A stretch of 64,000 nucleotides of DNA from Caldilineaceae bacterium (GTDB lineage Bacteria > Chloroflexota > Anaerolineae > Caldilineales > Caldilineaceae): positions 82,173 to 146,172 of the forward strand of contig JAPKMW010000015.1 of assembly GCA_026645575.1 (NCBI GenBank), given 5' to 3'. Positions 2,401-32,343 of this stretch are shown here, piece after piece (the stretch's first letter is position 1; each line of letters begins with the position of its first letter). Position numbers and translations under genes: made by a program. The notes under the pieces were generated by a model. That model was given only the letters and a program-made list of their open reading frames with translations. It was not told the origin of the DNA and did not search any database.

Positions 2401-2513
2401 CTTTAGGGTAACTACTACCCCCTCCCTAACCAGCTTGGGGAGGGAATCGTTGAGCGTATAACGATTCCTCCCCTTATCAGGAGGAGGGGGTGGCTTGGTA
2501 GTTACGCTTTAGG
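2401..2513. repeat. Imperfect inverted repeat (MITE- or terminator-like)
   Basis: Two arms of about 50 bp face each other: GTAACTACTACCCCCTCC with GGGGAGGGAATCGTT on the left, and AACGATTCCTCCCC with GGTAGTTAC on the right. The right arm runs into the end of the GNAT gene and supplies its TAA stop (2509-2511). It lies between two minus-strand genes and could act as a terminator for the GNAT gene. It could also be a short mobile element. The rest of 2253-2400 shows nothing recognisable beyond the ribosome site of the GH65 fusion. Confidence 0.55.
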
Positions 2514-2994
2514 ACGATGTGGATGGATTGGTCGGTGTCAACGTCACTGCCATGAGGGTGACGACTTCGCCGCGGTATTCGAGATCGCGTTGCGCTACCC
2601 AGCCTAAGCGGGCATAGAGTCTTTGTTGATCAGGCGTAATCAGGTAGAGGAGCGGAAAGCCCAGCTCCTGCGCGACCACTTTCATCTGGGCTGCCAGTGC
2701 TGTGGCAATGCCGCGCCCACGATAGGCCGGATCAACAAAAACGCTTGCCATAAAGGGCATGAGGTCAGGGTGGCTGCGTAGATCATTGACCACTAGCCCG
2801 GCAGAACCCATGACGACAGCGTTTTCTACTGCGATCAAGGTGGTGGGAATGCCTGGGCGGCCAACGTGCTGACCAAGGCGTTCAATCCGCCCCTGAAGGG
2901 AATCACCCGGATTCAAATGGCCCCACTCCGCATATTGCCAGGCGGCGACGGTGGGGATATGGTGCGGGTGGTCGGCAAGGTAGGCGATTTGCAT
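2509..2994 (-). CDS. GNAT family N-acetyltransferase
   Basis: A 161-residue protein of normal GNAT length. The acetyl-CoA-binding motif A is clear around residues 86-103 (VFVDPAYRGRGIATAL, matching the R/Q-x-x-G-x-G/A pattern), followed by the typical aromatic strand and C-terminal LYARLGW motif. Such enzymes move an acetyl group from acetyl-CoA to an amine on a small molecule or protein; the substrate here is unknown. It starts 18 bp after the stop of the small membrane protein gene on the same strand, so the two may be cotranscribed. No strong Shine-Dalgarno site is visible. The last residues (PTNPSTSS) and the stop codon lie in or next to an inverted repeat, so the C-terminus may have been altered by that element. 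Confidence 0.88.
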   Translation of the reverse strand: MQIAYLADHPHHIPTVAAWQYAEWGHLNPGDSLQGRIERLGQHVGRPGIPTTLIAVENAVVMGSAGLVVNDLRSHPDLMPFMASVFVDPAYRGRGIATALAAQMKVVAQELGFPLLYLITPDQQRLYARLGWVAQRDLEYRGEVVTLMAVTLTPTNPSTSS

Positions 2995-3012
2995 AGCGCG
3001 TTCTTTCTGTCG

Positions 3013-3363
3013 TTAGGTGGTGAGCCAGGTAAAAATCAGCCCAGCCAGAATAATGATCCCTTGTAGCACGGTCACACGGGCAAAGCGTGACCAAAGCTGC
3101 TTGCGTTCTACGCCCTGGCGGTAGTAATACTCCAGATAGAGAATCAAGCTGAGTGCGATCAGACCCAGGATGAGTACCCCGGCCCGATCAATAAAGCTCA
3201 TTAACCAGCGGTTCAACGGAGTCAGCCCAACCAACCCCATGATGAGCAAGCGGCCATAGAGAAAGTCGAGTATCATCAGGCCGGCGGCGACCAGCCAAAG
3301 CAGAAAGCTGACAACATAATTGGTGGTCAGGCGCTGAAACAAGGTGGGTGGATCTTTCGTCAC
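3013..3363 (-). CDS. Small integral membrane protein of unknown function
   Basis: A 116-residue protein with about four hydrophobic segments (roughly residues 15-34, 37-50, 62-81 and 97-115). The loops are short and charged, including an RQGVERKQLWSRFAR stretch before the last segment. I recognise no family. The composition is convincing for a real inner-membrane protein, and the gene sits 18 bp upstream of the GNAT gene in the same direction. Its upstream side faces the palindromic array at 3438-3510. Function cannot be assigned. Confidence 0.65.
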   Translation of the reverse strand: MTKDPPTLFQRLTTNYVVSFLLWLVAAGLMILDFLYGRLLIMGLVGLTPLNRWLMSFIDRAGVLILGLIALSLILYLEYYYRQGVERKQLWSRFARVTVLQGIIILAGLIFTWLTT

Positions 3364-3435
3364 GATTCATCTTCTTGGACATATTCACGATATGGCATAA
3401 CGCAGTGGCGAACTTGGAAGCGTCACTGTTGCTTA

Positions 3436-3512
3436 CAGCGAGTCACGGACTCGCTGTGAGCAGTGCGAGTCACGGACTCGCTGTGAGCAGTGCGAGTCAC
3501 GGACTCGCTGTG
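3436..3512. repeat. Tandem array of the GCGAGTC palindrome, 27-bp period
   Basis: Three cores GCGAGTCACGGACTCGC start at 3438, 3465 and 3492, exactly 27 bp apart, separated by TGTGAGCAGT. Each core is a 7-bp perfect inverted repeat around an ACG centre. The array lies 20-odd bp past the stop of the oppF-like gene and upstream of the small membrane protein gene. Other clusters of the same core are at 10540, 36203, 39717-40054, 60371 and 63914. Confidence 0.9.
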
Positions 3513-4590: not shown

Positions 4591-5661
4591 CTACCCCTCT
4601 CTGGCCGGCGCCATTTTGGCTGATTGCTGAAGCTTTTCATCGTATAGGAGACAACGCACACCCCGGTTGTTAGTGGCGCCGTTGACGGCGATCATGGTCG
4701 GCTCGATCCGGTTGCAGACCCCAGGCAACACCTCCGGGCAACGGGGATGGAACGGACAGCCCAATGGCACAACCGATGGGTCGGGGACATTGCCACGAAT
4801 CACCTCCAGCCGCTGGCGCCCTTCCGTATCCAAGCGCGGGATGGAACGCAAGAGCGCTTTGGTGTAGGGGTGCTTGGGGGCATAGAAGGCAGCATCAACA
4901 TCGGTCTTCTCCACCACCTTGCCCAGATACATCACCGCCACCTCATTGCACATCTCCGCCACCACCCCTAGATCGTGGGTGATAAAGATAATGCTCATGG
5001 CGGTGGCCTCTTGCAATTCCTGCATGAGATCAAGAATTTGCGCCTGGGTGGTCACATCCAACGCCGTGGTCGGTTCATCCGCAATGAGCAGGGTCGGGTT
5101 GCAACTGAGCGCAATCGCGATCATGACGCGCTGCCGTTGCCCGCCGCTCAACTGGTGTGGATAGCTATCAAAGATGCGGTGCGGCTCTGGCAGATGGACT
5201 TTGGCCAGGGCATCTTCCGCCACCTCGCGCGCCACCTGTTTGGTGACATTTTGGTGCAACGTAATTGCCTCTAGCAGATGGCTACCGACCGTAAAGAGCG
5301 GGTTCAACGAGGTCATCGGCTCCTGGAAGATCATGGCGATCTCATTGCCGCGGATGGTGCGCATCTCGCGCCCCCGTGGGTTCAACTTGGTGATCGTGAT
5401 CGCTTCTGTCGGGCCGCCGGCGCCGCTCCCCCGATAGTAGGTGATCTCACCGCCCATAATCCGGCCACGGCTTGGCACCATGTTCATAATGCACTGGGCG
5501 GTCACGCTTTTCCCACAACCGCTCTCCCCCACAATGCCCAACACTTCACCCCGGCGCAACGTAAAGTCAACCCCGGACAAGGCGCGTGTCACGCCGCTTT
5601 CGGTGAAGAAATGAGTGTGTAGGTCTTTGACTTGCAGAATAATGTCGTTCGTTTGTGTCAT
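4591..5661 (-). CDS. Oligopeptide/dipeptide ABC transporter ATP-binding protein (OppD/DppD type)
   Basis: A 356-residue ABC ATPase, the second nucleotide-binding subunit of the importer. Walker [10 protein letters not shown] lies near residue 45, signature [15 protein letters not shown] near residue 168, Walker [14 protein letters not shown]-loop ITHD. The C-terminal oligo_HPY domain has [16 protein letters not shown] cysteines, which in relatives can hold an iron-sulfur cluster. It precedes the OppF-like gene by 3 bp, implying coupled translation. A repeat hairpin separates it from the OppC-like gene upstream, so read-through past that structure would be needed for a single transcript. Confidence 0.95.
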
Positions 5662-5683
5662 GGAATGAGTCTATCGAAATAAA

Positions 5684-5762
5684 AGTTTGGTGATTGGGTG
5701 ATTCGGTGATTGAACGGGGGCCTGGGGGCGCGAAATCACCCAATCACCCATTCACCAAGTCA
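5684..5762. repeat. Hairpin built of short GGTGATT-type repeats between oppC- and oppD-like genes
   Basis: The left arm TTGGTGATTGGGTGATTCGG is made of 7-8 bp units and pairs imperfectly with the right arm AATCACCCAATCACCCATTC. The right side abuts the OppC stop. It may attenuate transcription inside the operon, or it may simply be one of the degenerate heptamer/octamer hairpins also seen at 7945 and 62344. Confidence 0.65.
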
Positions 5763-6947
5763 TTAAATCGCAAACGGATCCGCCGCATCACGAATACCGT
5801 CGCCGACAAAGTTAAAGCTGAGGACAGCCATAATGACAAAGAGACCGGGCAGCATCAGCCACGGTTTCTTCACCACCACGCTGACAGTTTGCGCATCTTG
5901 CAGCAGCGTTCCCCAACTGACAGCCGGGGGAAGAATGCCTAAACCGAGAAAGCTCAACGCCGTCTCGGCCAGGATCATGCCGGGGATGGCCAAGGTGGCG
6001 ACAACGATGATATGGCTCAGAGCGTTGGGCAGCATATGGACCAAGATGATGCGCGTATGGTTGGCGCCGGCGGCTTTGGCCGCCGAGGCAAAATCCATCT
6101 CGCGATAAGCTAAGACCTTGGCCCGCACCTGGCGCGCCAGACTTGTCCAGCCAAGCAAGGAGAGAATGATCGAGATGAAAAAGAAGCGGGTGGTGTTGGT
6201 CATGTCCGCCGGCAGTGCAGCGGCAAAGGCCGCCCACAGCGCAATGCTGGGAAAGGACATCAGCAACTCGGTGGCGCGTTGGATCAATGTATCGACAATG
6301 CCGCCAAAATAGCCCGAAACGGTTCCTAGCACCGAGCCGAAAATGATGGTCAGCGCCACGCCAATCAGCCCAACCGTCATCGAAATGCGACCGCCGTAGA
6401 TAATGCGCGCCACCATATCGCGGCCATTGCGGTCGGTACCCAACAAAAAGACCGTCCCCGGCTCTTCCACCCCATAGAAGTGGCGGTCACTTTCAATGAA
6501 GCCAAAGAGCTTGTAGGGTTGCCCTTTGACAAAGAAGTAGATGGGAAACTTCTGGCTCTGATCATCCTCATGCAGCCAATCGAGATTGACGGTATCCAGC
6601 GTGGTCGTCGTGCCATAGACAAAGGGGCGTAAGTGAAAATTGCCCTCGGCGTCAAAAAAGCGCGGCAGTTGCGGCGCACGGGCAACAAAATCCTCATTGG
6701 AGATGAGATGGTCATATGGGGCAAAGAATTCGGCAAAGACAATCACCGTATACATGCACAAAAGGATAACTGCCCCGACGACCGCTAAGCGATTGCGCAA
6801 GAAGCGCCGCCACATGAGCCGCCCAATCGAAAGTTGCCCAATATCGCCGGCCACATTGGCGGCTTGGGCATAGGCGGCGTTCTGCGGCGCCTCTTCTTCG
6901 TAGGAAGGCGGTAAAGGAAGTGCTTGTTGAGCCATAGTTCTCCTCAT
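5763..6947 (-). CDS. Peptide ABC transporter permease, OppC/DppC type, with enlarged periplasmic loop
   Basis: A 394-residue permease. After a cytoplasmic N-terminus (about 45 residues) and a first transmembrane helix (about 50-72), there is a long periplasmic insert of roughly 100 residues before the conserved GTDRNGRDMVARIIYGGR motif. The usual five-helix binding-protein-dependent transport domain follows. The EAA loop (EMDFASAAKAAGANHTRIILVHMLPNA) that docks onto the ATPases is clear. Typical OppC is about 300 residues, so the insert accounts for the extra length. Its ATG overlaps the end of the OppB-like gene by 4 bp, indicating translational coupling. Confidence 0.93.
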   Translation of the reverse strand: MRRTMAQQALPLPPSYEEEAPQNAAYAQAANVAGDIGQLSIGRLMWRRFLRNRLAVVGAVILLCMYTVIVFAEFFAPYDHLISNEDFVARAPQLPRFFDAEGNFHLRPFVYGTTTTLDTVNLDWLHEDDQSQKFPIYFFVKGQPYKLFGFIESDRHFYGVEEPGTVFLLGTDRNGRDMVARIIYGGRISMTVGLIGVALTIIFGSVLGTVSGYFGGIVDTLIQRATELLMSFPSIALWAAFAAALPADMTNTTRFFFISIILSLLGWTSLARQVRAKVLAYREMDFASAAKAAGANHTRIILVHMLPNALSHIIVVATLAIPGMILAETALSFLGLGILPPAVSWGTLLQDAQTVSVVVKKPWLMLPGLFVIMAVLSFNFVGDGIRDAADPFAI

Positions 6948-7927
6948 TCATACCGGATGCGCGGATCGACCAGCGCCAGCAAAATATCGGCCAGAAAATT
7001 GCCCAACACCAACATGCCGGCCAGGAACATGAGAATTGTGCCGGCCAGATACATATCTTGTTGACGGAGGGCATTGAAATAGAGCGGGCCGGTGGTGTTC
7101 AACCCCAACACAATCGAGACGACCAACGAGCCGGAAATAATCGACGGTAAACTCAGCCCCAGCAACATAATCAGCGGGTGGATGGCGTTGCGCACTGCGT
7201 GTTTGAAGATGACCGTGGGTTCACGCAAGCCGCGCGCACGGGCGGCCTGGACATATTGCATATTCAAAATATCAAGGAGGTTGCCGCGCATAATACGCAT
7301 CAACCCGGCGGTGCCTGAAGTGCCGACCACCAAAACCGGCACCCAGAGATGCTTGAGCAGGTCGAGTACTTTGGCAAAGCTCCACGGTGCGTCAATATAT
7401 TCGCGCGAGAAAAGGCCGCCGACGGAAAAGCCAAACCACTGTTGCGCCAACACCATTAAGACCAGCGCCAACATAAAATCGGGGATCGACAACCCAGCCA
7501 TACCCACCAACGTGGCGACATTGTCGCCCAATTTATACTGATGGGTGGCGGCATAGATGCCAATCGGAATCGCCACAAGCCAGGTGAAAAGCAAGCTAAA
7601 GAACGCAATCAACGCTGTATAGCCCAGCCGCGCCCAGATCAGATCCTTCACTTCCTGGTTATACTGAAAGGACTCGCCAAAATCGCCCTGGACAAAGCCG
7701 CTGATCCATTTCCAGTATTGCATATAGAGCGGCTGGTCCAACCCATAGCGCCGCTTGAGCGCTTCTAACTCCGCTTCTGCTGTGTGCGTCCCCTGATTTT
7801 GGCGTTGGGCCTGATACACTTCAATATAACTGCCGGGGGGCAGATTAATAATGAAGAAACCGATCATCGAAATGAAGACCAGCGTTGTGACCATGTAAAG
7901 TAAACGACGGGCGAGAAAGGCAAGCAT
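6944..7927 (-). CDS. Peptide ABC transporter permease, OppB/DppB type
   Basis: A 327-residue six-helix permease beginning MLAFLARRLLYMV, the standard OppB start. A longer in-frame reading back to 8011 exists but would translate the hairpin repeat, so the ATG at 7927 is preferred (AGGAT lies 7 nt upstream). The EAA motif is MQYVQAARARGLREPTVIFKHAVRNAIHPLI. It forms the transmembrane channel with the OppC-like protein, whose start overlaps its stop (ATGA). The gene follows the binding-protein gene after an 80-bp gap occupied by an inverted repeat. Confidence 0.94.
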   Translation of the reverse strand: MLAFLARRLLYMVTTLVFISMIGFFIINLPPGSYIEVYQAQRQNQGTHTAEAELEALKRRYGLDQPLYMQYWKWISGFVQGDFGESFQYNQEVKDLIWARLGYTALIAFFSLLFTWLVAIPIGIYAATHQYKLGDNVATLVGMAGLSIPDFMLALVLMVLAQQWFGFSVGGLFSREYIDAPWSFAKVLDLLKHLWVPVLVVGTSGTAGLMRIMRGNLLDILNMQYVQAARARGLREPTVIFKHAVRNAIHPLIMLLGLSLPSIISGSLVVSIVLGLNTTGPLYFNALRQQDMYLAGTILMFLAGMLVLGNFLADILLALVDPRIRYE

Positions 7928-7944
7928 AGATGATCCTGTCTCCG

Positions 7945-8035
7945 AAAGGGGCGGGTGGCGAGTAGCTGATGGCGAGTGGCGAGTCGAGATCGTGTACCCG
8001 CCACTCGCCACCCGTTACCCGTTACCCACTACTCT
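7945..8035. repeat. Heptamer/octamer inverted repeat between oppA- and oppB-like genes
   Basis: The left arm GGGTGGCGAGTAGCTGATGG and the right arm CCGCCACTCGCCACCCGTTA are made of short repeats (GGCGAGT, CCCGTTA). They face each other across a short loop. The right arm extends into the binding-protein gene and contributes its TAG stop. A structure here could lower transcription of the permease genes relative to the abundant binding protein, a common arrangement in ABC operons; that role is inference. Confidence 0.65.
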
Positions 8036-24176: not shown

Positions 24177-24998
24177 CTACTTCACCAAACCCTGTTTGAC
24201 ATCGGCATAACTAACCAGGCGGATGTCACGGCGTGAAACGATTTCTAATACCTGTGGGTCAGTCCACGCTTCTGTCACCCCCTGGCGATCCTGTGCGACC
24301 TGCTCATAGCCGATGTGGTGGATGGCGCGCGTTTCCGGGGTGTCATAGGCCGGGTGATCGACAAAGATCCACTTGCCAGGCGTCAGGGTTTCTAAGTTTT
24401 GTCGCAAAGCCGCCACCTTTTCGGCCGGCGTCAACAACGTACTGTTTTCGCCAAAACCGCGGAAGCGCTCAAAACCATGCGCCGGCAGATCGACCGCCAG
24501 GTCATATTCCGCCATCAGCTTGGCAATGACCCCCTGAAAGGTGGCATCGTCCCGCAGGCCCATCATGTGGACGGTGAGATGGCTGACCCACGGGATATGA
24601 TTGCGCACTAGTTCAATCTGTGCCCGCACTTCACTTTCCAGATCCGCCGGCGTCCAAGGTAGATCGCAGAAGGGAACCAGATCGGGGTAGCGACTGCCCT
24701 GCCAAAAGGTGTGACAGAAGTAGCCATTGGCATCGACAATGCTTTGGGCATTGGAAAGCGGTCGCCATTTGACATTCTCCCACTCGCTAGTCAAGGTCAG
24801 ATGGACGCCAACATCATAGGTGGGGTGCGCTTGCAACAACTTCACCGCTTCGGGAAACCAGGCGCATGGCGCCATGATCTCGACCGAACGGGCAATGCCT
24901 TTGGTGAAAACGTCCATACAGGCGGCGTTGGCGGCTTGGGCGCAGCCAATGTCATCGGCGCGGACGAGTAGGTAGATGGGTGGTTGTATTGTCATCAT
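24177..24998 (-). CDS. ChbG/HpnK (YdjC)-family carbohydrate deacetylase
   Basis: A 273-residue protein of the YdjC/ChbG family. The metal-binding Asp pair is in LLVRADDIGCAQAAN (D14/D15), and the family motif DVGVHLTLTSEW carries the metal His. A later HMMGLRDDATFQG region corresponds to the third metal-ligand segment. Known members remove acetyl groups from diacetylchitobiose or related glycans. Its ATG overlaps the stop of the STAND gene by 4 bp (ATGA), implying translational coupling. It precedes the GH3 gene by 10 bp, so deacetylase and glycosidase plausibly act on the same sugar. Confidence 0.85.
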   Translation of the reverse strand: MMTIQPPIYLLVRADDIGCAQAANAACMDVFTKGIARSVEIMAPCAWFPEAVKLLQAHPTYDVGVHLTLTSEWENVKWRPLSNAQSIVDANGYFCHTFWQGSRYPDLVPFCDLPWTPADLESEVRAQIELVRNHIPWVSHLTVHMMGLRDDATFQGVIAKLMAEYDLAVDLPAHGFERFRGFGENSTLLTPAEKVAALRQNLETLTPGKWIFVDHPAYDTPETRAIHHIGYEQVAQDRQGVTEAWTDPQVLEIVSRRDIRLVSYADVKQGLVK

Positions 24999-27900
24999 TT
25001 CTTTCTTTTGGCAGCACGCTTTTTATTTGATTTATCTCTACTGACTCCGCCAGGTACCAACTTTAGTGACTGTTTCACTTTTTCACATACCGCATACACT
25101 CCGTTTGTGTTTTGACAAATATTGTATGCACGCGTTAAATATTGTCGTGCTAGTATAAATTGTTTCAAATGTAACATAATGATGCCCAAATTGTATAACA
25201 ACGTGACCAATTGTGGATGATTTTTTATGAGTAAGGCATCATATATGTGTAATGCCCATTCTAGGTATAAGCGGGCACCCACGAGTTGACCTTGCGCTAG
25301 TAATAATGATCCGAGGTTGTTAAGGCTTGTAGCAGTGTCTAAATGATTGTTGCCTAACACCTGTTGGTGGATTGCCAGCGCTTTTTCGTAATAAGCACGA
25401 GCTTTTTCATATTCCCTTTGGGCCTGTAATAGCGAACCAAGGTTGTTTAGGCTAGTAGCTGTGTCAGCGTGGTTGTCTCCTAACGTTTGTTGGCAAATCT
25501 CTAGTGCTTCTTCATAATAGTTACGAGCTTGTTCATGCTTGCCTTGCGCTTGTAATAGCAACCCAAGATTGTTCAAGCTTGCAACGCTATCAGGATGATT
25601 AGTGCCAAGAACTTGACGTCGAATCGCCAACGCTTCTTCAAGATGAATGCGTGCTTCTTCATACTTACCCTGAGATTGTAAAAGTGTCCCAAGATTATTT
25701 AGACCCATAGCCGTATCAGGATGAGTGTTACCTAACACCTGACGACTAATTTCTAACGCTTCTTTATGGTAAATATATGCATGCTCACATTTTCCCAGTG
25801 ACTGTAGCAGGCAGCCAAGGTTGTTTAGACAAGAAATTGTATCAGGATGATGATTGCCTAGCACTTGACGGAAAATTGTTAGCGCTTCCTCATGATATAT
25901 ACGTGCTTGCTCGTATTTACCGTGTTCATGTAGCAACGCTCCGAGATTATCTATACTCAAGGCTGTGGCAGAGTGATTACTGCCCAAAACCTTGCGTCGG
26001 ATTTCTAGAGCTTCTTGATGATATTGATGTGCTTGTTTATAATCACCCTGTGCCTGGCATAGTGTGCCAAGGTTGGATAAAGTATTAGCTGTGTCAGGAT
26101 GGTTACTGCCTAATATCTCCCGACGATTTGTCAAAGCTGTTTCATAGTGTGTGTACGCCATGTCATAGTTGCCTTTGGCTTGGGCAAGAAATCCAAGATT
26201 ATGCAAAGCAGTGGCAGTATTTGGGTGAAAGTTTCCTAGTACTTGACGGCAAATCATTAGTGTAGCTTCGTAATAAAAATGTGCTTGCTCATACTTGCCT
26301 TGCAATTGAAAAATCAAACCGAGATTGTTTAAACTCACTGCTGTATCAGGATGATTATCGCCCAGTATGTGTTGGCGAATTGCTAAAGCAGCTTCATAGT
26401 AATCCTGAGCTTTTTGATACTCACCTTTCTCCTGAAATAGATAACCGAGGTTGTTAAGGCTTTTAGCCGTGTCCTCATGCTCTTGCCCTAAAGATGCCTG
26501 CCGAATCCTTAAAGCTCGCTCATGGCAAAGTTGGGCATGAGAATAATTTGTTTGCTCTCTTTGTAATTGACCTAGAAAATCGAGGCTTTCTGCGGTGACT
26601 AAGTGGTCTTCGCCAAAGAGTATACTGCGAGTTTTGAGTGCTAGCTCAGTAACAGACTGTGCTTTCGCATACTCGCCTTGTTCGTTTAAATAGTAGGCTG
26701 CTTTCTGCCATAGTGTGGCGACTAACTCAGGTTCGATTTTCTGCTTTTCGGCATGGTTCACAACAGTTATGAGATGGGGGAGTATATTGCCGCTGGCCGC
26801 CCATGTCTCTAAGTTATACTGATCGAAGGGAAAAAATTGATTGACCAAATGAATTGCTGCTTCGAGCCACCTTTCTTTTTCCTCTTTATGCAATCGATCT
26901 TGGGTAACTTCCTGAACCAGACGATGAATGGTGATCGTCTCTTCTTTGCGCGAAATGAGGGAATAGCGGTAAAGTGTAGCCAGCATCTCTTCCACTTCCA
27001 GCATATTTTCTAACGTCGCTTGCAGGGTTGGTGATAAGCCGGCTGCACCAAAGCGGATCATGGTAATAGAGATATTATCTGGTGCTAGAAAGGCGCAGAG
27101 ATTGAGTAAGTGGGCGGCAGCAGGATTGGCTTGTTGAACTTGTTGAAAGGCGATCTCCCAAGTGGTCAAGACTGTCGCTGGATAATTGCGCGGCGGTGTT
27201 GCCCGCTGCCAAAGTTCTTGCCGTCGCTCGACATACAGGGTTGCATAGGTCGTAAGCGGCATCCCTCGTTCACTCATAAAAGCGGCGGCCTGCTCAAGCG
27301 CTAATGGCAACTTGCCGAGAAGCTCAGCCACCTGTTCGGCGGCGGCTTGATTGGTATCACCAGTACGCTTGATCAAGAAAGCGCTTGCTTCGGCCAGGGA
27401 AAACTCGTTCAGTTGCAAAACGTTGCCTAAGTGCCGCCAATTTGGATTACGCGATGTGATGATGACATGACCATTGCCCTGGGCTGGTAATACATCCTGT
27501 AATTGCTCCGCTGTTTCGGCATTATCAAAAATCAACAACCAGCGCTGGGCTGTAGCGGCCAACCAGCCACGGACAAGATTGATCAAAATATTCTTATCAA
27601 CGGCTGTTTTTACCGGTAAGTTGAGCCGACTGATTAGCGTTGCATAGTCCGCCGAAAATAACTCATCGTTTTCGGTCCGTATCCACCAAACCAAGTCATA
27701 ATCGGCGGCATGGCGGTACGCAAATTCAACTGCGCTTTGCGTTTTGCCAACACCACCCAAACCTGCCATCGTCTGTACTAAAACCGTCGTATTGCCTGCT
27801 GACAGATTTTGTGTAAGAATGGCTAAAGTATCTTCGCGCCCTGCGAAATTAGGATTGCGATGGAAGGGTACATAGAAGATAGGAAACTGCAGCTCATTGT

Positions 27901-28102
27901 TTTGCTGTGCATCATCTGGCTGAGCCATCTCTAGTTTGGCTTTGAGATCAGCAATCTTTCCCTCCCACTCGCGTTCAGCATCAATCAGAGCTAGTGGAAT
28001 ATCTGTCCGTAAAATGAACTCTTCTTTGCGCTCTTGAATGAGACGCATCTTCCGCTCTGCACGCGCTAATTCATCTCTCAAAGCCTGCACACTTTTATCC
28101 AT
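24995..28102 (-). CDS. STAND NTPase: adaptor-like N-terminus, NB-ARC domain and 12 kinesin-light-chain-type TPRs
   Basis: A 1035-residue signalling NTPase. Residues about 8-57 are a charged helical module resembling the C-terminus of the neighbouring caspase. The NB-ARC domain follows: an FAGREDTLAIL entry motif, Walker A GLGGVGKTQ (114-122), Walker B RWLLIFDNAE, the RNPNW sensor and the GKLPLALEQAAAF motif. A winged-helix region leads to about 12 TPRs of 42 residues (repeat theme LNNLGxLLQAQGKYEQA...LGxNHPDTA) from about residue 480 to 995. Such proteins sense a ligand through the TPRs, oligomerise on ATP and activate an effector. It lies 4 bp after the caspase gene. The DNA is lower in GC than its neighbours. 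Ligand unknown; no signal peptide. Confidence 0.92.
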   Translation of the reverse strand: MDKSVQALRDELARAERKMRLIQERKEEFILRTDIPLALIDAEREWEGKIADLKAKLEMAQPDDAQQNNELQFPIFYVPFHRNPNFAGREDTLAILTQNLSAGNTTVLVQTMAGLGGVGKTQSAVEFAYRHAADYDLVWWIRTENDELFSADYATLISRLNLPVKTAVDKNILINLVRGWLAATAQRWLLIFDNAETAEQLQDVLPAQGNGHVIITSRNPNWRHLGNVLQLNEFSLAEASAFLIKRTGDTNQAAAEQVAELLGKLPLALEQAAAFMSERGMPLTTYATLYVERRQELWQRATPPRNYPATVLTTWEIAFQQVQQANPAAAHLLNLCAFLAPDNISITMIRFGAAGLSPTLQATLENMLEVEEMLATLYRYSLISRKEETITIHRLVQEVTQDRLHKEEKERWLEAAIHLVNQFFPFDQYNLETWAASGNILPHLITVVNHAEKQKIEPELVATLWQKAAYYLNEQGEYAKAQSVTELALKTRSILFGEDHLVTAESLDFLGQLQREQTNYSHAQLCHERALRIRQASLGQEHEDTAKSLNNLGYLFQEKGEYQKAQDYYEAALAIRQHILGDNHPDTAVSLNNLGLIFQLQGKYEQAHFYYEATLMICRQVLGNFHPNTATALHNLGFLAQAKGNYDMAYTHYETALTNRREILGSNHPDTANTLSNLGTLCQAQGDYKQAHQYHQEALEIRRKVLGSNHSATALSIDNLGALLHEHGKYEQARIYHEEALTIFRQVLGNHHPDTISCLNNLGCLLQSLGKCEHAYIYHKEALEISRQVLGNTHPDTAMGLNNLGTLLQSQGKYEEARIHLEEALAIRRQVLGTNHPDSVASLNNLGLLLQAQGKHEQARNYYEEALEICQQTLGDNHADTATSLNNLGSLLQAQREYEKARAYYEKALAIHQQVLGNNHLDTATSLNNLGSLLLAQGQLVGARLYLEWALHIYDALLIKNHPQLVTLLYNLGIIMLHLKQFILARQYLTRAYNICQNTNGVYAVCEKVKQSLKLVPGGVSRDKSNKKRAAKRKK

Positions 28103-28106
28103 TTTT

Positions 28107-29108
28107 CTACCCCTGGCTCAGTTTGCGCTCTAATTCTTGAATATCCGCTTCGGTGCGGCGTTTGTTGTCGATCAATTGCAGCGGAATGTCTTGATATTCA
28201 ATATATTCCGTCATACGTTCTTCCATCAGCAATAATGCCCTGCGGCGGTTTTCAAGCCGGCGTTTCAACGTGGCGATCTGTTCCTGATTGATCCCCGCCC
28301 CTGGTTGCGCCACAGGCAAGGTAGAGCCATCGCTAGACCAGGTCAACTTTTTCGGCATTTTGTCTCCTGCGGCGTAATAGGCCAGAGCAAAGTTATCTTC
28401 CAGCGCACTCACCTTCAGAATCGGATGCTGTTTATCTTGCGTGCGTTCCGGTACTTTCCGCCCTAACCACATGCTGAGATCCAGAACGCGTACATAACCA
28501 TCATTCTCAAAACTGCCGTACCCAGCGAATGCCTCCAGGAGCGCTGCCGTGAAGACGCTATAAGGTTTTCCTGTCCATGAAACTTCGTCTTTGCGTGAGG
28601 AGGCAATCACCACCCGCCCGCTACTTTTCCTAAGCTCGGTTGCAACTTCATTTGGCAAAGGTGATTTCATCCCGGCCAACCCTTTTGCTTCCGCCTGTCC
28701 ACCCGCATGGCAACAGTCGAGTAAGACCACCAGCTTTTTTGCCTGAATCTTGCGCAGACAGTTTGTAAATTCAAGACCAGAGATCGCTGTATTTGGCAGA
28801 TCAGCCAAATCATAACCAAACGGCATCAGGTGGTAAGCCGGTGTTTCCAGCCCATGCCCTGAAAAGTAAACGATGACCGTTGCTTCAGGATCATTTTGTG
28901 TCTGATTCGCAAGTTGTGTCAGCGCCGTCAAAACGGCGTCACGTTTGGCCGCTGGGCCGGTTAGCAGTTGTACTTGCTGGGGTGGGTATGCGCAGCGCGT
29001 TGCATCACAAAGTAAATCAGCAACGCCTTGTGCATCAGCAATGGTTACCGGCAGATCGGCCCCGACCCCAATCACAACAGCATAGCCGTGGGTAAATGTC
29101 TGAGTCAT
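28107..29108 (-). CDS. Caspase-family (peptidase C14) protease with C-terminal adaptor-like helices
   Basis: A 333-residue protein. The caspase fold covers residues about 8-245. The catalytic His is H85 in YFSGHG and the catalytic Cys is C133 in LLDCCHAGG (D-x-C-H as in metacaspases and other prokaryotic caspases). After a linker, residues 279-331 are charged helices that align without gaps with residues 8-57 of the downstream STAND protein. Context and this shared module suggest the STAND protein recruits and activates the protease, as in apoptosome-like or prokaryotic immune systems; that is inference. AAGGGA lies 7 nt before the ATG. It is the first gene of the run caspase-STAND-ChbG-GH3. 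Confidence 0.92.
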   Translation of the reverse strand: MTQTFTHGYAVVIGVGADLPVTIADAQGVADLLCDATRCAYPPQQVQLLTGPAAKRDAVLTALTQLANQTQNDPEATVIVYFSGHGLETPAYHLMPFGYDLADLPNTAISGLEFTNCLRKIQAKKLVVLLDCCHAGGQAEAKGLAGMKSPLPNEVATELRKSSGRVVIASSRKDEVSWTGKPYSVFTAALLEAFAGYGSFENDGYVRVLDLSMWLGRKVPERTQDKQHPILKVSALEDNFALAYYAAGDKMPKKLTWSSDGSTLPVAQPGAGINQEQIATLKRRLENRRRALLLMEERMTEYIEYQDIPLQLIDNKRRTEADIQELERKLSQG

Positions 29109-29343
29109 TTGCTAGTCCCTTCTACGTGATTGTGCTTCTGAAGCTGATCGGATGAAAGAGTTGCATAATTGCTTCGGTAAGCGGAATAGCTTGGTTGCTA
29201 CCTCTAGAAAATCCGACTGCCCATCGAGTTGAACTTGCTGACCAGGTAACGGATGCCGAAAGAGGAATAACGATACTTACGAAGTATATTTAAAATTGTA
29301 AATATAAGCAAAAAGCACTTTGGGTTGACTGAGTCTAGAAAAG
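29109..29343. other. Upstream region of the caspase operon
   Basis: This AT-richer stretch precedes the caspase start on the minus strand. A small palindrome ATACTT-ACG-AAGTAT lies near 29272-29286. No convincing promoter hexamer pair was found. Left of it, towards the sensor gene, is the long hairpin element at 29344-29472. Confidence 0.35.
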
Positions 29344-29472
29344 GTGGCTCAACCGGAATCCAAGGGATTGACAAAGGAATCTTCCGGGAAGGTCGGTTCT
29401 GTCGACCGGCTCGTCCGGTTAAACCTTCCCGGAAGATGGTTGTCAAGTCCCTGAGTTTCGGTTGAGCCGAAA
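29344..29472. repeat. Long dispersed hairpin element, copy 1 (CTTCCGGGAAGG family)
   Basis: The arms of about 48 bp pair with interruptions. The left arm carries GGCTCAACCGGAA, GGGATTGACAA and ATCTTCCGGGAAGGT; the right arm carries ACCTTCCCGGAAGAT, TTGTCAAGTCCC and CGGTTGAGCC. The loop contains GTCGACC. A second element with the same ATCTTCCGGGAAGG core and GTCGACC loop is at 56551-56672. It carries no reading frame. Confidence 0.8.
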
Positions 29473-29493
29473 AGGTTACACTGCCTATCGGTC

Positions 29494-30975
29494 CTATCCA
29501 GTCTGTGATCTTTGCTGGCGTCTACGGTAAACTTCTGGGTACAATGTCTTCATGCAGTCGGTGCAAATCCCGTGGCTGAACTGGGCGTCGGTGTGCTGGC
29601 TAATATAAGTCTCCAACCCTTGCCAGGCGCCTTCCTCATCGCGAATCTTTTTACAATTGGCGCAGATGGGCAAAATGCCGTGAAGCGTTTTGATCTCGGC
29701 GGTGCGTTCGGCCACCAGGCGTTCTAACTCTTCGCTGCGAATCTCCAGATTTTGGCGTGCTTGTTCTTCCGCTTGTAACCGCGCCCGCTGTAAAATACGA
29801 ATGCGATCTGTTAGCGCAAACGAGAGCAAAAGCGTACTAACGGCAACGCCAATCGTAGGACTTTGAAAGAGCAGGAGATGGTAGGGAAGAATATTGGCGC
29901 CTAATAGACCGATAATGATGGTGCTGCACCATAAGCAAATCTGCCCCATGAGATAAAAGCGGGCTTCCGTCTGTTTGTGGCGCCAGGCGATCACACTGAT
30001 GATGGAACAAAAGGCAGGGTAGAGAAAGATTGCCACCATGATGAGACTATAGGCAAAGCGCCAAGACCACAAGAACGGACTAATGCCTATAATGATGGCC
30101 CCAATGATGAAAATTTTCAGCCAGCGTTCAAGCCGCCGATTGGTTTGTATCTGCAAAAGTTCCCGTAGGATGAGGATATTCATCAATAGGCTAATCCCAG
30201 AAAAGACCACAGTCCCTTCGTTGCCAAGCCAGGTGTTGTCAGGATAAAGCGCGGCTGGGCCAAAGCCACTGCCCCCGGCTATCGCCAGATAAGTGATCGG
30301 TAAAAAAAGTACGTAGTATAAGTGTAGACGGCTGCGCAGGAGAGAAAGGACAAAGAGGTTGTAAATGAACAAGGCGCCGAAAACTCCTAAGAATAAGCTG
30401 TGCAGCATCCAAGCAAAAGTTATCGAGCTTTGGAGCGCCTTTCCCTCCAATACGGCAAACGGTACGAGCAAAGGCTCCCCATCAGATTTAACCTGCACAT
30501 ACAACTCGGCTGATGTGCCAGGCGCCAGATGAAATGGTAAAACTAAAGTGGTCGCTGGATAAGGACGCTGGCGTGCTGGCAACTTGTCACCTGAGTGTAC
30601 GGTCTCTTGGAGCAGGCCCTGACTAACCACATAAAGCGTGACATAATCGAGCACCGCATTTTTGATGTCGAGGTAGAACTCTTGAGGCGCATCGGTTTGG
30701 TTCTGTACCGGGATCCGCAGCCAGTAGGCTGAAGGGGTGAAGCCAAAGTTAGGCGTTGTCAAGTCCAGATCGGTAAATTGCGCGCGTTGCGCCAGGATTT
30801 GGTCAAGTGTGGCGATTGCTGATGGATCAGCCAACACCTGTACCTGGCTGACATCTATCGTTTGCTGCCGCGGCGCCGCATGGGCTACACTTGTCAGCCC
30901 CAGCACGCAAATGAGTAGCGCAAGTGCAGAGCGCCCACCTAGATCCCTCCATAAATTAACCCTAAGATTTGTCAT
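29494..30975 (-). CDS. 7TM-DISM sensor protein with coiled coil and C-terminal CxxC/CxxC tail
   Basis: About 493 residues from the ATG at 30975, chosen because AAAGGGG lies just upstream and because this aligns with the paralogue's start. A longer frame to 31065 exists. Order: signal peptide, 7TMR-DISM extracellular beta-sandwich (FTPSAYWLRIPVQN, FYLDIKNAVLDYVTLYVV), seven transmembrane helices, then a coiled coil (RQNLEIRSEELERLVAERTAEIKTL). The tail ILPICANCKKIRDEEGAW...HGICTDCMKTLYPE has four cysteines in two CxxC pairs. This tail is common behind PAS and receiver domains; its role is not established. There is no kinase or cyclase domain, so the output is unclear. A paralogue is at 31260-32126. 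Confidence 0.82.
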   Translation of the reverse strand: MTNLRVNLWRDLGGRSALALLICVLGLTSVAHAAPRQQTIDVSQVQVLADPSAIATLDQILAQRAQFTDLDLTTPNFGFTPSAYWLRIPVQNQTDAPQEFYLDIKNAVLDYVTLYVVSQGLLQETVHSGDKLPARQRPYPATTLVLPFHLAPGTSAELYVQVKSDGEPLLVPFAVLEGKALQSSITFAWMLHSLFLGVFGALFIYNLFVLSLLRSRLHLYYVLFLPITYLAIAGGSGFGPAALYPDNTWLGNEGTVVFSGISLLMNILILRELLQIQTNRRLERWLKIFIIGAIIIGISPFLWSWRFAYSLIMVAIFLYPAFCSIISVIAWRHKQTEARFYLMGQICLWCSTIIIGLLGANILPYHLLLFQSPTIGVAVSTLLLSFALTDRIRILQRARLQAEEQARQNLEIRSEELERLVAERTAEIKTLHGILPICANCKKIRDEEGAWQGLETYISQHTDAQFSHGICTDCMKTLYPEVYRRRQQRSQTG

Positions 30976-31129
30976 CTGCGCCCCTTTGGTCACTCGCCCC
31001 ATCGCTGACCTGACTTGGCTTGCTTTGCCGCGGCAGATAAGCTGCCTAGAAGCTTGCAAAGTCAAGCTGTTCCTCTCGCTCTAATGATTGATCGTTGCGA
31101 ATTCTTCCCGTAATACATCTTGCTGCTTT

Positions 31130-31259
31130 GCATTAGTAACTGATGTTGCGCACCGGGCCCAAGGGGCGCCCCGCCGCCATCGCTGGCGGCAGGCCGGCAG
31201 GATGCCGCGGGAACCCACTGGGTGCCCAGGAGAAGTTGCGTAACATCAGTTACTAATGC
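31130..31259. repeat. 130-bp element with about 22-bp terminal inverted repeats
   Basis: The ends GCATTAGTAACTGATGTTGC (31130-31149) and the inverted copy ending CATCAGTTACTAATGC (31259) pair with one or two differences. The interior is GC-rich and includes further small stems (GGGCCC, CGCCGCCATCGCTGGCGGC). It sits between the two DISM paralogues and abuts the stop codon of the second. It may be a mobile miniature element or a terminator. Confidence 0.65.
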
Positions 31260-32126
31260 TTAATTGGCCCGATTCTGCTGACGTTTGCGGTGAATTTCCG
31301 GGTATAACTCTGCTATACAGTCAACACAGATACCGTGGCTAAATTGGGCGTCGGTGTGTTGGCTGATGTAGGTCTCCAACCCTTGCCAGGCGCCTTCCTC
31401 ATTGCGGATCTTCTTGCAATTGGCGCAGATGGGCAGAATGCCGTGGAGCGTTTTGATCTCGGCGGTGCGTTCGGCGACCAGGCGTTCTAACTCTTCGCTG
31501 CGAATCTCCAGATTTTGGCGCGCCCGTTCCTCGGCAATCATGCGCGCCCGTTGGAGGAGGCGAATTGGGTCGGCCAGCGCGAGCGAAAGCAAAAGGGCAT
31601 CACTGGCGATGCCAAGGGCAGGGCTTTGATAAATGAGGAAATGATAGTATAGTTCCGCTGCCGCGCCCCCTGCCAGATGAAAGGGTAAGACCAATGTAGT
31701 GGCGAGATAAGGGCGCTGGTTGGTCGGTACTGTATCACCGGATAGTATGGTCTCATGCAGAGTAGCGTTACCGACCACATACAATGTCACATAGTCTAGC
31801 CCTGAATTTTTAATATCAAGGTAGAACCTATTTGGTACCTTATCTGGATTTTGTACAGGGATGCGGAACCAATAGGCTGATGCGGTGAACCCATAATTGG
31901 GGGCAGTCGTCTGTAAATCGGTAAATTGTGCGCGTTGCGCCAGGATCTGAGCCAACGTGGCCGTTGCCGACCGATCTTCCCACACTTGTACTTGGCCAAC
32001 GACTAAATCCTGGCGTACAGGCGCCGCTTGCACACTACTGGTCAGCCAGAAGGCACAGAAGATCAGCGCCAGCGCGATTTGCTCGATAACAGGTCGTGAT
32101 CCACCAAAACGGCCGACCTTGATCAT
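31260..32126 (-). CDS. DISM sensor paralogue with the transmembrane domain deleted in frame
   Basis: About 288 residues from the ATG at 32126 (AAAGGAG just upstream; a GTG 6 nt earlier is the alternative). It is closely related to the 29494-30975 protein over both ends: signal peptide plus DISM extracellular domain (FTASAYWFRIPVQN), then the final membrane segment, coiled coil and the LPICANCKKIR...HGICVDCIAELYPE tail. About 230 residues covering the first six helices are missing: the sequence jumps from GGAAAELY to YHFLIYQSPALGIA, which align with residues on either side of the helices in the paralogue. The frame is intact, so it may be a single-pass variant or a recent remnant. Confidence 0.78.
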   Translation of the reverse strand: MIKVGRFGGSRPVIEQIALALIFCAFWLTSSVQAAPVRQDLVVGQVQVWEDRSATATLAQILAQRAQFTDLQTTAPNYGFTASAYWFRIPVQNPDKVPNRFYLDIKNSGLDYVTLYVVGNATLHETILSGDTVPTNQRPYLATTLVLPFHLAGGAAAELYYHFLIYQSPALGIASDALLLSLALADPIRLLQRARMIAEERARQNLEIRSEELERLVAERTAEIKTLHGILPICANCKKIRNEEGAWQGLETYISQHTDAQFSHGICVDCIAELYPEIHRKRQQNRAN

Positions 32127-32343
32127 CTCCACTCCTTTGTTTGGGAGGCGGCGCCTTCCCGCCTATGGTTGATTTACCCGAGCGTTGTGTCTGGTTGACG
32201 AATACTACTGACTTTTCTATCAACCAAATGCAACGATCGGGTTCTACGGTTCATGATTCTACAGCAGACAGTTAACCAGAAATTTACCAGGGATGCCAGC
32301 TACAAATGTCAGTTGCTTGCCGGAAACCGCCTACAACTGGTCA

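Follow-up and report, generated by a model that had tools for sequence, protein, structure and literature searches.

A two-helix module shared by a caspase and its neighbouring STAND NTPase in a Caldilineaceae bacterium

In a stretch of 64,000 nucleotides from a Caldilineaceae bacterium (contig JAPKMW010000015.1, positions 82,173 to 146,172; the whole stretch is called the window below), a gene for a caspase-like protease lies next to a gene for a STAND NTPase. The locus raises the question whether the two proteins carry the same small module at their adjoining ends, and what such a module would do. The caspase gene (28107..29108, minus strand, 333 amino acids) and the STAND gene (24995..28102, minus strand, 1035 amino acids) are separated by 4 bp between caspase stop and STAND start (28103..28106, minus strand). 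Coordinates and frames of both open reading frames (ORFs) and the spacing had been given in an original prediction, made from the letters alone, and were found correct by an ORF check. Our analysis suggests that the two genes probably encode an effector/NTPase system whose parts are joined by matching adaptors, in which the caspase would be recruited to an NTPase platform and activated by proximity.

Homology and shape of the two ends

Residues 281-330 of the caspase and residues 8-57 of the STAND protein align without a gap and share 21 identities in 50, including the motif DIPLxLID and the pair ER. Among all offset pairs of 50-mers this one ranked at the top, and the ten best pairs lay on one diagonal. 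BLASTP matched the two ends with E 4e-7 unfiltered and with E 3e-4 under the low-complexity filter, which left 30 residues. The local score of 92 was reached by none of 5000 shuffles (maximum 60). A recent tandem duplication of the module was ruled out, since DNA identity amounted to only 66 of 150 nucleotides. For a non-circular comparison, a profile was taken from 123 caspase tails alone, with no STAND or iSTAND sequence inside. It found the STAND N-terminus with 39.0 bits in the full protein and 45.0 bits in the isolated 62-mer, the N-termini of two Trichodesmium-type iSTAND proteins with 52.2 and 34.7 bits, and that of a Nostoc iSTAND protein with 28.0 bits. Shuffling the STAND end 20,000 times gave at most 12.5 bits with the same profile. 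When 671 ORFs from the window and five further loci were searched, only module-bearing genes matched at E <= 1. Profile against profile, the caspase tails and seven partner N-termini were aligned with a probability of 98.9% and E 1.6e-17. These comparisons make a strong case for the homology of the two ends and for the placement of the module. The original prediction had reported the ungapped match and a homologous module at these two ends; both were confirmed by BLASTP, shuffles and profile comparison, and the segments find each other by profile search.

Structure models were used to describe the shape of the module. The caspase copy (residues 275-333; 28110..28286, minus strand) is predicted to hold a helix at 275-300, a turn with IPL and a helix at 310-332. 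The STAND copy (residues 1-60; 27923..28102, minus strand) is predicted to hold a helix at 3-30, a turn and a helix at 37-60. In the caspase model, the predicted local distance difference test score (pLDDT) was 84-94 over residues 281-330. The STAND end, modelled from an alignment of five module sequences, had a mean pLDDT of 88; because caspase tails were part of this alignment, the two models are not wholly independent of each other. Block means over the helices were 84-96 (caspase 281-330, STAND 1-60), and after an offset of 273 residues the helix borders of both copies agreed within three residues. By these models the module comprises about 57 residues, two helices and a short turn, with the signature ER...IPL. 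It is probably an antiparallel hairpin, the models giving helices and not contacts. In caspase numbering, ER stands at 297-298 and IPL at 308-310. Pro309 was present in 123/123 tails and 7/7 partner copies; the same holds for Arg298, and an eighth partner (locus L110) has Asn there. Hydrophobic positions kept on both sides, with few exceptions in the partner copies, are 278, 281, 285, 292, 295, 302, 310, 323, 326 and 330. A six-helix death fold (CARD, DED, Pyrin, Death) was rejected, as both single-chain models contain two helices; in the Nostoc iSTAND protein, residues 29-62 matched DED, though far under the cut-off (13.5 vs 35.9 bits). No Pfam model exceeded its cut-off on the module; pieces of it matched below threshold, with a best E of 0.008. 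The description in the original prediction as a helical pair lacking a six-helix death fold is borne out, and its suggestion that the module may be undescribed gains support from the Pfam result.

The caspase domain occupies residues 1-245 (28374..29108, minus strand), with His85 in FSGHG and Cys133 in DCCHAGG. It matched PF00656 (Peptidase_C14) with E 2e-21, its profile matched metacaspase chains weakly (best E 2.5e-5), and its model (mean pLDDT 75, weak at 136-162 and 235-270) found the MALT1 paracaspase in Foldseek (E 2e-8, TM 0.46), along with other caspase-fold proteins. Both dyad residues were invariant in an alignment of 68 caspases that included the window protein; P0008, which is outside this alignment, lacks the His segment. 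The protein is a peptidase of the C14 class, with a caspase fold and a His/Cys dyad. Between the caspase domain and the module lies a variable linker at about residues 246-274 (28287..28373, minus strand), mostly predicted disordered, with pLDDT below 50 at 235-270. Pairwise identity among relatives was 0.73 at residues 1-245, 0.42 at 250-275 and 0.66 at 278-331, and the module, better conserved (0.66) than the linker (0.42), was present in 123/123 aligned caspases. These were the 120 best listed of 2103 matches, the window protein and two Trichodesmium-type proteins; since the tail was part of the search profile behind the 120, the sample is biased towards proteins that have it. Organisms named among the 120 matches listed include Nostoc, Okeania, Rhizonema and Anaerolineales bacterium HSG6. 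A search of a protein database with the caspase tail matched 8 of 12 candidates, all of them caspases.

In the STAND protein, the NTPase core spans about residues 90-410 (26873..27835, minus strand) and a TPR array of the kinesin-light-chain type about residues 541-955 (25238..26482, minus strand). A motif scan placed the P-loop GLGGVGKT at 114, LLIFDN at 189, TSR at 216, GKLPLAL at 263 and IHRL at 392. In Pfam, NB-ARC (PF00931) stayed under its cut-off at residues 90-280 (18.4 vs 23.5 bits), and DUF7779 and TPR families exceeded theirs; TPR_12 matched 11 stretches and TPR_10 matched 12. Residues 91-341 matched AfsR chains, and the TPR part matched kinesin light chain. With its P-loop, NB-ARC type motifs and repeat array, the protein is a STAND NTPase. 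NF040586 (FxSxx-COOH system TPR protein) scored 654.9 bits against a cut-off of 300, the name coming from the profile match alone. Membership of that system would call for an FxSxx-COOH peptide and its radical SAM partner alongside.

Recurrence of the module and exchange of partners

A genome scan with four module sequences returned 79 pattern stretches, one of which was confirmed (locus L001, in a Trichodesmium metagenome genome). Profile searches found the full-length module in 2 of 386 cyanobacterial genomes, with only weak partial matches in 12 others, and in further cyanobacterial sets in 7 of 388 genomes (one copy cut by a contig end), 6 of 61 and 3 of 217. The sets overlap, and together they hold nine genomes with the module. 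Each of these has one or two matches, on the caspase and its neighbour only. At locus L028 the module is carried by a Nostoc edaphicum plasmid, and the match in genome G738 is the same plasmid.

At eight of the nine tailed-caspase loci with a readable next gene, this gene begins with the module (the window, L001, L023, L028, L043, L044, L046 and L110). The number of independent cases is below eight, as L001 and L023 are close relatives, as are L043 and L044. The recurrence check proposed with the original prediction, a profile search for the module at the ends of other proteins, thus came out in its favour: matching ends of caspases and core proteins carry it. At six loci (L001, L023, L028, L043, L044 and L110) the partner is an iSTAND protein (PF19995), and its gene is followed by a MoxR-type AAA gene, tested with Pfam in L001, L023 and L028; the corresponding genes of the remaining loci resemble these in sequence. 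In L046 the partner is a 206-residue protein with the module, followed by a DUF2326/CTD10 ATPase of ABC-3C systems; the position of the 206-residue protein suggests the middle component of an ABC-3C system, its own Pfam matches being below threshold. The direct pair of a caspase and a catalytic STAND protein is an unusual form among these loci. Because the same caspase adjoins iSTAND/MoxR and ABC-3C genes with the same adaptor, one caspase appears as a constant effector and the NTPase core as exchangeable (STAND, iSTAND/MoxR and apparently ABC-3C). As an observation on L045, the ninth locus, positions 2443-3471 and 5500-7062 hold the tailed caspase and, downstream of it, another caspase with a GUN4 fusion.

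More distant caspases were compared with their neighbours in a hand-picked set of 13 loci (twelve plasmid loci and one viral contig), 12 of which carry more distant caspases. Neighbours were chosen by hand: the upstream gene for L064, L068, L069 and L070, both sides for L066 and the downstream gene for the others. The caspase end was matched in a neighbour gene at 9 of the 13 loci, and at 8 of 12 among the more distant caspases. In L064, L068 and L070 (Skermanella, Rhizobium, Enterobacter) the matched upstream neighbours are annotated as EAD1-containing. Short motif matches with the next gene were seen in L065, L067, L031, L033 and L030, the plasmid loci among these coming from Nostoc sp. UHCC 0926, Calothrix sp. 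PCC 7716, Pseudanabaena and Tolypothrix. The match at L028 is the present two-helix module. No neighbour match at E <= 1e-3 was obtained for L066, L069, L071 and L032 (Calothrix NIES-22, Mesorhizobium, Azospirillum, Herpetosiphon), and the negative for L069 is weak, with no listed gene in the stretch directly before the caspase. As a control, neighbours were cut to 200 amino acids; 7 of 13 adjacent pairs and 5 of 156 non-adjacent pairs then matched at E <= 1e-3, and three of the five non-adjacent matches paired an EAD1-type end with an EAD1-type neighbour. Because neighbours match the other tails of these distant caspases (8 of 12 loci), the caspase clan changes its tag, and the neighbour tends to follow. 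Two observations concern these tails themselves. In the viral contig L030, a caspase tail and the next protein (5908-6921 and 6945-7961) share QPGWxVxxVI with E 7e-5, the caspase being 51% identical in the best segment. The tails in L031, L033, L065 and L067, all on cyanobacterial plasmids, are short, rich in glycine and asparagine, and amyloid-motif-like by eye.

The module was also found at the N-terminus of the large terminase in viral contigs, with 57.6 bits in L022 (5974-7686) and about 55 bits in L085, L083 and L086. The module-bearing terminase genes lie at 869-2584 in L083, at 1272-2987 in L084/L085 and from 1470 in L086. In L022 the genes for the terminase small subunit, the large subunit and the portal stand in a row. 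Related terminases were collected from 24 distinct contigs; L103, which starts inside the gene, was excluded, and 4 of the 23 assessable terminases carry the module. As L083, L085 and L086 are 96-100% identical to the search query, the four represent about two independent cases. The terminase of L087, 84% identical over residues 71-571, is without the module. INPHARED phages gave no match with the caspase tail or with the terminase copy. The terminase module may have a role in packaging. A bolder proposal, which we regard as rather doubtful, is that the hairpin is a contested docking code: the caspase would be wired into at least three unrelated NTPase cores, and the phage copy would be a decoy or a platform that triggers the caspase. 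If this were true, the terminase hairpin would tie up the caspase or its platform, or a terminase ring would set the caspase off. Large terminases are a protein class sensed by other STAND immune proteins. According to PMC12931631, the targets of Avs1 to Avs4 are large terminases, portals or another phage protein. The terminase copy gives a tangible starting point for the question of phage mimicry of immune adaptors.

A proposed docking model and its rivals

How could the shared module work? Alignments and models show homologous copies of two predicted helices, an intact His/Cys dyad in the caspase, a P-loop in the STAND protein and recurrence with other cores. On sequence grounds, docking of the two hairpins is likely; the steps beyond docking, including caspase activation and a role in defence, form a model. 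In the resting cell the STAND protein would be closed. A trigger on the TPR array would open it, ATP-bound subunits would oligomerise, and their clustered N-terminal hairpins would pack onto those of the caspase, in a bundle of perhaps four helices or more. The crowded caspase domains would then gain activity against a protein of the host or phage or against a pro-effector, and cleavage would lead to death or arrest of the infected cell. Two precedents would support such a proximity and adaptor mechanism by analogy: a c-Jun zipper in place of HamA is described as rendering the fused protease toxic (PMC12799240), and the CARD of LypA as binding the N-terminal domain of LypB (PMC13236601).

Several observations weigh against proximity activation through a matched adaptor. 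Short helical hairpins can converge. The tailed caspase of L045 lacks a module neighbour, and searches of its genome revealed no second module. A catalytic STAND partner was seen once, in the window; with the STAND N-terminus as query, the window protein itself was the sole match among 130 candidates, at limited sensitivity. None of the six iSTAND loci showed a recognisable vWA protein, and the large gene after MoxR had no Pfam match over the cut-off where tested (L001, L023, L044). Cognate copies were only slightly more alike than non-cognate ones (mean 97.0 vs 89.8, permutation p 0.029, from seven non-independent pairs). Pfam recognised no defence gene among the 14 neighbours scanned, two of which were without a match; the PADLOC run covered the caspase/STAND pair.

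Three other explanations were considered. The same anatomy and the adjacent genes would fit a standing complex, in which the hairpins hold the caspase on a closed STAND protein or core and a trigger releases or re-orients it, and the data do not order the steps. Nevertheless, oligomerisation is described as what activates the proteases in comparable systems (PMC12799240), and we think a preformed inhibited complex unlikely. Somewhat less probable still is that the tail primarily homodimerises the caspase, which would self-assemble with the core merely nucleating it, the cores having borrowed the tail later. The presence of the tail in all 123 aligned caspases, also where a module partner is missing as in L045, would suit this idea, as would the heptad-like hydrophobic spacing in the tail; however, a partner copy stands at eight of nine loci and would be superfluous for pure homodimerisation. 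Finally, the match could be a functionless likeness of charged helices, alike by composition as in any coiled coil. The module is indeed charged and helical, the weak partial matches in 12 of 386 genomes (20 to 24 bits) fall at positions 27-57, and pieces of it gave the sub-threshold Pfam matches mentioned above. Against this, shuffles stayed at or below 12.5 bits where the real ends scored 39-45, a nine-row profile found nothing better than E 0.14 among 177,635 PDB sequences, and Pro309 and Arg298 are kept in all tails and in seven of seven partners, the Asn of L110 apart. Given the shuffles, the background ORFs and the PDB sequences, we hold a generic coiled-coil match to be very improbable. 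Proximity activation on an NTPase platform is the reading that we prefer.

In its genomic setting the pair is low in G+C (caspase gene 0.516, STAND gene 0.448, window 0.554). In 1-kb bins the pair ranged from 0.42 to 0.51 and the wider flanks from 0.52 to 0.64; low values (0.49-0.54) also occurred beyond the pair, in the three bins on the upstream side of the caspase. The low region fits a possible acquisition by transfer, without proving it. Over 25000-32000 the G+C content was 0.42-0.54, with the minimum in the TPR part of the STAND gene. Upstream lie tandem 7TMR-DISM proteins (29494-31065 and 31260-32132) with nearly identical C-terminal ends (ICANCKKIR...), the second having no 7TM match. 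On the other side, a YdjC-like gene (24177..24998, minus strand; PF04794, E 8e-42) overlaps the STAND stop by 4 bp (ATGA) and is followed by a GH3 gene. It is probably a carbohydrate gene outside the caspase/STAND system, and co-transcription with the pair is possible.

Comparison with known adaptor and caspase systems

The nearest known relatives in design are the effector-associated domains (EADs) and bacterial death-like domains of Kaur and colleagues 2020, 2021 (PMC7159879, PMC8195603), where the design principle has been published; apoptosome-like assembly via such domains is in general already in print (PMC7159879, PMC8195603, PMC10907252). EADs, as described there, are likewise small non-enzymatic domains with copies at the ends of a core protein and of the effector next door, they share the iSTAND-MoxR context and caspase effectors, and homotypic docking has been proposed for them. 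The present module is small and non-enzymatic (about 57 amino acids, two helices), one copy stands on the end of a core (the window STAND protein, six iSTAND proteins and the L046 gene beside the ABC-3C ATPase), and the second is on the C-terminus of the adjacent caspase at eight of nine loci. It differs from EADs in having no Pfam match over the cut-off, two helices only and one or two copies per genome; several copies on varied effectors, a typical though not defining feature of EADs, were not seen in the nine genomes. EAD1 (PF19955) was rejected: Pfam gave no EAD1 match on the module, and hhalign against five EAD1 sequences gave 0.2%; these five remained from 12 EAD1 loci after seven had been set aside for a wrongly read frame or strand. 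Pfam EAD1 was present elsewhere in 4 of 6 of the same genomes. No Pfam match named EAD was found on the module at E 10, with Pfam coverage checked for EAD1. The module appears to be an undescribed family of the effector-associated adaptor kind, and the profile comparison, limited to EAD1, sets it apart from that family. Text searches of the literature, with sequence searching and supplementary files outside their scope, found no earlier description. The module would add a minimal two-helix adaptor to the known effector-associated domains. One caspase family is found next to cores that bear this tag and are of the catalytic STAND, the inactive-STAND/MoxR and apparently the ABC-3C type. The profile of the module can be used for finding further members, and the two-protein system makes proximity activation of bacterial caspases directly testable.

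Other systems resemble the pair in part. BASS motifs (Dyrka 2020, cited in PMC12261475) are described as 21-40 residue beta-arch motifs, with matched segments at the N-terminus of an NLR and the C-terminus of an effector encoded in a collocated gene; this class was rejected, as the module is alpha-helical. To the EACC1-associated caspases (NF047832) the window caspase shows a family resemblance with 86.4 bits, which is under the 140-bit cut-off, and an EACC1-caspase system was rejected. No EACC1 gene was recognised beside the caspase, no EACC1 model having been applied to the neighbours. Of the MoxR-vWA-iSTAND ternary system, the six cyanobacterial iSTAND loci show the iSTAND protein and a MoxR-type next gene; the vWA component was not recognised. 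Canu caspase-nuclease loci and Hachiman/AVAST protease-nuclease pairs (PMC12799240) are described as cases in which unrelated immune cores, several in number, have taken up a protease module, and the CanA caspase is reported there to resemble MALT1, as the window caspase model does in Foldseek. These differ in that no pro-nuclease gene was recognised beside the window pair; the portion of PMC12799240 consulted does not describe a shared two-helix tag for them. The CARD-NLR systems of Lysobacter and Caulobacter LypABC (PMC13236601) are like the pair in joining a peptidase and an NLR-like ATPase through a small helical domain, and LypB without its N-terminal domain is reported to fail in complementation. 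There, by the description in that source, the partner of the LypB N-terminal domain is a CARD-like helical bundle belonging to a trypsin-like peptidase, whereas in the window pair homologous two-helix modules stand on both sides and the peptidase is a caspase.

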